A stretch of DNA of 64,000 nucleotides, from contig JARGFH010000001.1 in assembly GCA_029210695.1 (NCBI GenBank), forward strand, positions 62,001 through 126,000. The letters are read 5' to 3'. Positions 11,956-41,887 of the stretch are shown in pieces (the stretch's first letter is position 1; the number at the start of each line of letters is the position of its first letter). Position numbers and translations under genes: made by a program. A model generated the notes under the pieces. It was not told the origin of the DNA, did no database searches, and saw only the letters and a list, made by a program, of their open reading frames with translations. Source of the DNA: Acidimicrobiia bacterium (lineage in GTDB: Bacteria > Actinomycetota > Acidimicrobiia > Spongiisociales > JAHEDJ01).

Positions 11956-12006
11956 TTTTCTCCGCAATACTGTGGACCACCACGCACCATTGCATTGCGG
12001 AGAAAA
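11956..12006. repeat. Palindromic intergenic repeat, copy 1
   Basis: A ~50-bp unit bounded by complementary ends TTCTCCGCAAT and ATTGCGGAGAA. It lies immediately after the small membrane gene and before the convergent fabF end. Copy 2 is 11 bp downstream in the same orientation, and a diverged copy lies at 41495-41544. Position and symmetry suggest a REP-like element or bidirectional terminator. Confidence 0.8.
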
Positions 12007-12017
12007 TCGTTCAGATG

Positions 12018-12065
12018 TTCTGCGCAATACTGTGGACCACCACGCACCATTGCATTGCGGAGAAA
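12018..12065. repeat. Palindromic intergenic repeat, copy 2
   Basis: Direct repeat of the preceding unit, identical over the central region (CTGTGGACCACCACGCACCA) and differing at the left end, where TCTCCGC is TCTGCGC. It ends 14 bp before the fabF stop codon. Confidence 0.8.
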
Positions 12066-12079
12066 GTCCGTTTGTGGGG

Positions 12080-20779: not shown

Positions 20780-20932
20780 TCGCAGGTCAATAGTCGCGGG
20801 TTGCTAGTGGTCCGTCGCGGATTTGGTGACTTGGTCTCCTGCCGGACGATCCCCGCTGTGGCAGGGTTCGTGGCACTGCCTACCCCGGTCATCAAATAGC
20901 AGACAGACCACTAGTTGCGAGTCGCTTGTTTC
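20777..20932. repeat. Degenerate heptamer array interrupted by a MITE
   Basis: Ignoring the inserted element at 20804-20914, the sequence reads as consecutive heptamers: TAGTCGC, AGGTCAA, TAGTCGC, GGGTTGC, TAGTTGC, GAGTCGC, TTGTTTC. The element splits the fifth unit. The array fills the gap between glgP and the aminotransferase gene. Related arrays occur at 39452-39486 and 50863-50883. Confidence 0.6.
20804..20914. mobile_element. MITE-like element, copy 1 (111 bp including CTAG ends)
   Basis: Begins CTAGTGGTC and ends GACCACTAG. The inverted ends extend imperfectly to about 27 bp, with ATTTGGTGAC on the left matching GTCATCAAAT on the right. It is base-for-base identical to 27702-27812. It is too short to encode a transposase. 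CTAG at both ends fits TA duplication at a CTAG target, as known for IS630-type elements. The empty site would restore a heptamer array. Confidence 0.88.
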
Positions 20933-27303: not shown

Positions 27304-27875
27304 TCAGGCGGTAGTAGGACAGGGCTCGAGGAAATCGGACAAAGCCTCTTCCTTGGCCGGGTCGAGAGGTCCACTGGATCGCCAGAGGATGCCGCCCGCT
27401 CGATCGATGAGCAACGTATGAATCGTCGAATCGTCTTCGATACCAAGTGACGCAAGGAACTCGATCTTGTCGATGTAGAGCGTGATCGTGTGTTCACGGA
27501 TGGTCCGGTCGGGAATTCCGGAGCGCATTCCGCTGTCGATGAACCACTGCGAAAGCCGGCCCCTGGATTCGATGACCGGCAACTCGTAGGCAACCAGATT
27601 GGAGTGACGGGCCTGAAGCCGTCTTGCCAAAGGCATCCAGGTATCGACCAACGTCTGATGGTCTCGCCGGAAAGCCAGTATGACGAGGTTCTTCTCGCCT
27701 TCTAGTGGTCCGTCGCGGATTTGGTGACTTGGTCTCCTGCCGGACGATCCCCGCTGTGGCAGGGTTCGTGGCACTGCCTACCCCGGTCATCAAATAGCAG
27801 ACAGACCACTAGGCCCCCCGGAAGGGTGACAGACCTGCGTTCGAGATTCGATCCGGCAACAGTCGGGAAGTGCAT
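27304..27875 (-). pseudogene. Redoxin-like protein gene split by a MITE
   Basis: The gene starts at ATG 27875 after GGAGGAG and encodes MHFPTVAGSNLERRSVTLPG, then meets the 111-bp element. Translation runs through the element and stops exactly at its far end (TAG of CTAG). Downstream, EGEKNLVILAFRRDHQTLVD continues in another frame to the stop at 27304. Removing 107 bp (the element plus one duplicated TA) gives 465 bp, an intact 154-aa frame. The encoded protein looks like a thioredoxin-fold, ATP10/redoxin-like protein (LYIDKIEFLASLG, TLLIDRAGGILWRSSG) without a CxxC motif. I infer a recently inactivated gene. Confidence 0.82.
27702..27812. mobile_element. MITE-like element, copy 2, inserted in a gene
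   Basis: Identical over 111 bp to 20804-20914, with the same CTAGTGGTC/GACCACTAG ends. It interrupts the redoxin-like gene at a CTAG (codons CTA-GAA), and the gene frame is restored on precise removal. No transposase for it is present in the window, so it would need a partner element elsewhere. Confidence 0.9.
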
Positions 27876-41494: not shown

Positions 41495-41544
41495 TTTTCT
41501 GCGCAATGCAATGGACCGTCACGCGCCAATGTATTGCGGAGAAA
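41495..41544. repeat. Palindromic intergenic repeat, copy 3 (diverged, inverted)
   Basis: In reverse complement it aligns to the repeats at 11956 and 12018: ends TTTCTCCGCAATAC and CATTGCATTGCGCAGAAA are conserved, the centre differs. It fills the gap between the DksA-like gene's end and the NYN gene. Confidence 0.7.
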
Positions 41545-41545
41545 C

Positions 41546-41887
41546 TCAGGGTCGGGCGGCGCCGGAGCTGCAAAGGACGCACATGGCCGTGGACGGAATC
41601 GCCTCCATGCGTTCGAGCGGGATCCGTTGGCCGCAGCCGTCGCATATGCCGTATGTTCCCTGTTCGAGCTTGCTGAGAGCTCGATCGATGTCGGCAATAG
41701 AGCGAAAAATCGACCGCGCCGTTGCGGTTGTACTGATCCGCTCGACGGCTTCAGTGGTTCCGTCCCCAACGCGTTTGCCGAAAGACACATTGGCTCCGGA
41801 CTCGGGCGGTGCCGTCAACCGGGCGAGCTCGGCGCTCAAGTCATGCCTTCGCTGTCTCAGGCTGCTGTTCAGTTCTTCGAAGCTCAA
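41546..41887 (-). CDS. DksA/TraR-type zinc finger protein
   Basis: A 113-residue protein with a helical N-terminus (FEELNSSLRQRRHDLSAELA) and a C4 zinc finger CDGCGQRIPLERMEAIP then CVLC at the end. DksA-type proteins bind RNA polymerase secondary channel or act as small regulators; in Actinobacteria the RbpA/CarD partners differ, so its exact role is open. TTG 41887 with GAGG eight bases upstream is my start; ATG 41950 is an alternative. It is divergent from the ilvB promoter. Confidence 0.8.
   Translation of the reverse strand: MSFEELNSSLRQRRHDLSAELARLTAPPESGANVSFGKRVGDGTTEAVERISTTATARSIFRSIADIDRALSKLEQGTYGICDGCGQRIPLERMEAIPSTAMCVLCSSGAARP

Follow-up and report, generated by a model that had tools for sequence, protein, structure and literature searches.

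The window analysed here is a stretch of 64,000 nt from Acidimicrobiia bacterium (assembly GCA_029210695.1, contig JARGFH010000001.1, positions 62,001-126,000, forward strand). It contains two identical 111-bp stretches, at 20804-20914 and 27702-27812, each with CTAG at either end. The latter lies within a gene for a thioredoxin-fold protein, and the former lies 25 bp past the stop codon of a 709-aa ORF, within a tract of degenerate heptamer repeats. In window coordinates, the relevant features are:

27304..27875, minus strand: thioredoxin-fold gene that the element divides after codon 21; its two parts together make 154 codons
27702..27812, no strand assigned: MITE copy, including both CTAG target copies
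27702..27732, plus strand: terminal inverted repeat, similar at 26 of 31 positions to the 3' end of the resident IS630 element
27782..27812, minus strand: terminal inverted repeat of the opposite end, matching the IS 3' end at 22 of 31 positions and the IS 5' end at 21 of 31
27304..27774, minus strand: 156-aa frame that opens at a GTG inside the element and covers the 133 codons left, with a possible altered N-terminus
20804..20914, no strand assigned: second, identical MITE copy, intergenic

Structure of the 111-bp element

The element core measures 103 bp (27706-27808) if the target duplication is 4 bp long, and 105 bp (27705-27809) if it is TA. By inspection, the ends read TGGTCCGTCGCGGATTTGG and TGGTCTGTCTGCTATTTGA. 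The outer block of the inverted repeat comprises 13 bp with one mismatch, and 23 of 31 positions match when the comparison is extended to 31 bp. The element folds far more strongly than shuffled sequence, with z values of -3.9 as DNA and -5.3 as RNA.

Elements of exactly 111 bp were also found in three other genera of the order (genomes G080, G068 and G112), with gapless identities to the window element of 86/111, 72/111 and 83/111, respectively; homology of the core is clear for G080 and G112, and not for G068. When GTDB genomes were scanned for exact matches to the left-end sequence, only five stretches emerged, all in uncultured MAGs. The longest frame running end to end through the element has 36 codons and is open in all four genera. 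Differences among the four are spread evenly over the codon positions (56/52/46), and the frame thus carries no sign of coding selection; an element-encoded protein was rejected on this basis. The element is short and without a transposase gene, it has terminal inverted repeats, and it is bounded by a target duplication, with empty sites in relatives and dispersed copies in its own genome (vide infra), as is typical of MITEs.

The interrupted gene and its empty site

Joining the flanks over a single CTAG yields 465 bp, or 154 codons plus a stop (MHFPTV...LPGG-LEGEKNLV...PTTA*). When the joined protein was searched against about 100 related genomes, uninterrupted orthologues were detected in three of the four congeners, G001 (95% identical), G002 and G003 (86%), and more distant uninterrupted orthologues were detected elsewhere in the order. 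The DNA alignment across the junction is gap-free in all three congeners. At the site of the CTAG found here, these genomes read CGAG on the plus strand, and the target thus probably arose via a silent substitution (CTC to CTA, both Leu) that preceded the insertion.

Searching the PDB by sequence with the gene family gave no hit, and a fold comparison was therefore run. The AlphaFold model of the gene product (mean pLDDT 85.6) has a thioredoxin fold, and its best Foldseek matches in the PDB are thioredoxin/ResA/TlpA-type proteins. Against Pfam, the product gives a weak ATP10 match, and the CXXC motif is absent from it.

The insertion falls in codon 22. The upstream fragment stays in frame through the whole element until the TAG of the distal CTAG (27702-27704, minus strand) terminates it. 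What is left is a 21-residue N-terminal stub followed by 36 element-encoded residues, with 133 codons severed from their start. The function of the split gene has likely been lost. It is conceivable, if improbable, that the gene is instead retained with a new N-terminus, the element providing the start (a GTG) and roughly 23 new residues for a 156-aa protein with an intact thioredoxin core. The frame at 27304-27774 indeed opens within the element and continues into the remaining 133 codons, which contain neither a stop nor a frameshift, and in the AlphaFold model the part removed by the insertion is an N-terminal hairpin that precedes the core strands. However, an intact downstream frame is equally expected after a recent insertion, the GTG is a putative start only, and this lineage has an arginine in place of a tryptophan that six of the eight aligned orthologues share. 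Ten substitutions have accumulated in the 465 bp on this lineage since the split from G001; five of them replace an amino acid, versus two of seven on the G001 branch, numbers that are too few to call. Four of the ten fall within 21 bp at the insertion site (27809-27830; gene positions 46-66), a cluster that was noticed post hoc and may be due to chance.

A previous sequence-only reading had placed the 111-bp element at a CTAG inside a redoxin-like gene and had proposed that a 107-bp deletion restores a 465-bp, 154-aa frame. The first proposal is borne out by the thioredoxin fold and the uninterrupted orthologues, and the second by the joined flanks and their gap-free counterparts in G001, G002 and G003. 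The empty site that it suggested seeking in close relatives is present, as an intact gene without gaps, in three genomes of the same genus, and the insertion is consequently not common to all relatives. Its description of the deletion as the element plus one TA is correct as to the 107 bp and not as to TA specifically: the element plus one CTAG is the identical 107 bp, and restoration of the frame thus cannot distinguish a 2-bp from a 4-bp duplication. Upstream translation does end at the border of the element, as it had stated; the border it called the right one is so in the direction of the gene, and is the low-coordinate border on the plus strand.

Copies across the genome

The genome (3.9 Mb, 181 contigs) contains 29 copies of the MITE, including 24 that are identical over 111 bp, one that differs only in its outer bases and four that are cut by contig ends, and no copy was found in the four congeners. 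The deviant copy (L025) has an identical 103-bp core and is flanked by GTAG on both sides. The flanks of the 25 complete copies are unrelated, with only the four target bases in common, which excludes segmental duplication of flanking DNA. A joint search with the 25 reconstructed empty sites as queries identified orthologous unoccupied sites in G001 for ten insertions, the window gene site and nine further ones. Four orthologous empty sites have exactly one CTAG, and 32 of 40 target bases match the relative over the ten orthologous sites, indicating that the four flanking bases come from the target. By a crude ORF analysis, removal of the element reopens long frames at several sites (417, 272, 816, 368, 495 and 534 codons), and some insertions thus break genes. 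At a minimum of four sites (L009, L010, L016 and L021), the upstream frame has the TAG of the CTAG target as its stop codon, and the upstream protein is thus unchanged by the insertion. Further copies are located in intergenic heptamer repeats with CTAG in them.

Other repeats occur in the neighborhood of some copies. Degenerate heptamer repeats of the GTTCTAG, AACCTAG and GTTGCTAGTCGC types flank several MITE and IS copies in this genome, as well as both G112 copies; they are located at 20780-20930 in the window and in the flanks of L005, L006, L015, L017, L044, L070, L073-L075, L077, L082 and L083. Only two heptamer arrays stood out when the window was scored for a period of 7. These repeats contain CTAG and may serve as landing sites. 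A palindromic repeat of about 50 nt (TTTCTGCGCAATACT...CATTGCATTGCGCAGAAA), which belongs to a separate REP-like family, is found three times in the window (11958-12008, 12018-12068 and 41497-41547), beside the MITE copy at L010 and in many places in G001. A repeat like GGGGGAGATGCCGAGTCTTCGAGGCAGAGGGGG at the flank of L014 (C17:59365 region) recurs widely in G001, G002 and G003.

About 2,600 bp of complete MITE copies are without change, versus ten substitutions in 465 bp of the host gene, and the spread of the MITE thus looks much younger than the split from G001. The contigs that bear the IS described below stop 70-76 bp into it, which suggests an assembly k of about 77; the identity of the copies may therefore be in part an effect of the assembler, which may have smoothed rare variants. 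With that caveat, the recent movement proposed in the sequence-only reading is supported, and the copy at 20804 is identical, as it had noted. It had also pointed to a search for further copies and for an IS630-type transposase with matching ends, and these exist in 29 and about ten copies, respectively; the segmental duplication that it had named as a competing origin is refuted by the unrelated flanks.

The probable partner, an IS630-family element

The genome contains TAGTGGTCNGTC 75 times, versus twice for its reversed control. Beyond the MITE copies, these occurrences include the ends of one longer element, ten 5' and ten 3', mostly at contig ends; all are preceded by C, and therefore lie at CTAG, and they have the same TAGTGGTCTGTC ends. 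This longer element is an IS630 element with about ten copies in the genome. Its transposase fragments (161 and 129 aa) are recognized by the NCBIfam IS630 model at E values of 7e-22 and 4e-21, and the C-terminal fragment also matches Pfam DDE_3. The resident IS is incomplete in the assembly, which lacks the middle of the transposase; in other genera, full-length relatives occur whose ends are of the same kind and are bounded by CTAG on either side.

Because its ends (TAGTGGTCYGTC) and its CTAG target are common to the MITE, the IS630-family element is the probable source of the MITE's transposase. The left end of the MITE matches the 3' end of the IS at 26 of 31 positions and can be read as ...VTKSATDH*, where the transposase C-terminus reads ...ITESATDH*, and the variant TAGTGGTGTGTC is present in both the MITE and the IS of G068. 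These similarities make it likely that the MITE is mobilised in trans by the resident IS630 transposase, which would excise it via the common outer inverted repeat and paste it into CTAG sites, duplicating the target. The interior of the MITE, however, has no clear derivation from the resident IS. The MITE has recently spread to about 29 places, with one insertion landing in codon 22 of the thioredoxin-fold gene, where it left the stub with its element-encoded residues and probably abolished function.

CTAG flanks fit a TA and a CTAG duplication alike, and the published target duplication of IS630 and ISY100 is the 2-bp TA (PMC2170065). A TA duplication would leave the terminal C of the element on the right, and the GTAG on both sides of L025 thus suggests a 4-bp duplication, as a single case that is not decisive. 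This copy sits in a DDE_Tnp_1_4 (IS1380-like) transposase gene, an empty copy of which was not found in its own genome or in 58 relatives. Neither an element in G069 nor the IS in L163 is informative on the size of the duplication, as the outer bases are mismatched in both.

The GTAG-flanked copy, the only informative one, is also what would be expected if the MITE owed its movement to a different transposase family, IS5- or IS701-like and with a 4-bp CTAG duplication, and resembled the IS630 ends only incidentally. A precedent exists in MITEPsy1 of Pseudomonas syringae, which is thought to be IS5-derived and duplicates CTAG or YTAA (PMC3189936). Nevertheless, an IS630-family transposase is encoded by the only longer elements found with MITE-type ends, searches that did not target other families by name revealed no further transposase with ends of this type, and IS630 itself prefers TA within CTAG, to judge from the title of Tenzen and Ohtsubo 1991 as cited in PMC2170065; movement by another family is quite improbable. 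Even less credible is that the two window copies or the split gene reflect segmental duplication or chimeric assembly and no transposition. The MITE repeat is longer than the probable assembly k, and wrong joins are thus possible in principle, but the 25 complete copies have unrelated flanks and, at ten sites, the paired flanks adjoin each other in relatives, which makes an assembly chimera unlikely; at the window gene, one of these sites, the gap-free orthologues refute such an origin. Taken together, the sequence evidence very strongly favors a non-autonomous IS630-type MITE that has recently spread to about 29 places, splitting the thioredoxin-fold gene, and that was most likely moved by the resident IS630 transposase.

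Element lengths

For elements with these or similar ends, the TA-to-TA lengths are 109 (four genomes), 98, 99, 97, 98, 120, 89, 130 and 123 bp. Six scans of viral contigs added three of these lengths, and a sample of 397 genomes of the phylum yielded no further ones. With the 98 and 99 of one genus counted as one family, there are eight end-defined families, and the mean resultant of their lengths is 0.74 for a period of 10.5 bp (simulated p of about 0.008), in a small sample and for an idea that was formed after the first four lengths. Three of the later four lengths are within 1 bp of phase and one (123) is off-phase, with a chance of about 0.07 by a simple binomial estimate. This clustering at one-helical-turn spacing is only suggestive, a lead and not a result. 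For a helical constraint on short mobile DNA, the lengths of Paramecium IESs and helical-twist experiments offer a precedent (PMC3464196). The pneumococcal repeat RUP, which is related to IS630, measures about 107 bp (PMC3049150). A tentative and rather doubtful extension would be that very short IS630-type MITEs are limited to lengths that keep their ends on the same helix face (TA-to-TA near 88, 98, 109, 120 and 130 bp), and that at least this IS630 group duplicates CTAG and not TA.

Comparison with known systems

Like the MITE described here, pneumococcal RUP, which is linked to IS630-Spn1, has no gene, carries ends of the resident IS630 type, duplicates its target and has many copies that occasionally split genes (PMC3049150). 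Compared by literature description only, it differs in its host phylum, in being AT-rich and in having old and diverged copies, whereas those here are identical. The partner element resembles IS630 and ISY100, of the IS630/Tc1/mariner family, in its matches to IS630-family transposase models and in its use of CTAG; those elements duplicate TA, whereas one copy here points to a 4-bp duplication. MITEPsy1, for which transposition has been observed, is similar in its size (100 bp), its 4-bp duplication at CTAG or YTAA and its splitting of genes (PMC3189936). However, its IS5-like ends (GGAAGGTCTGAAAAAGCC) are unrelated to the ends given above. The cyanobacterial Nezha MITE, for which movement in trans by a resident IS has likewise been proposed (PMC3049150), has a different host phylum and an ISNpu3-like partner; it is set beside the present element by description and not by sequence.

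It is well supported that the window element is an ordinary IS630-type MITE, with a mode of operation like that of pneumococcal RUP. What it provides is a cleanly documented recent burst of such a MITE in an uncultured actinobacterium, and, since many empty sites and a probable partner IS are known for it, a convenient case for the study of MITE movement and site choice. The GTAG-flanked copy and the helical-turn spacing of element lengths raise two concrete, testable questions on IS630 transposition.
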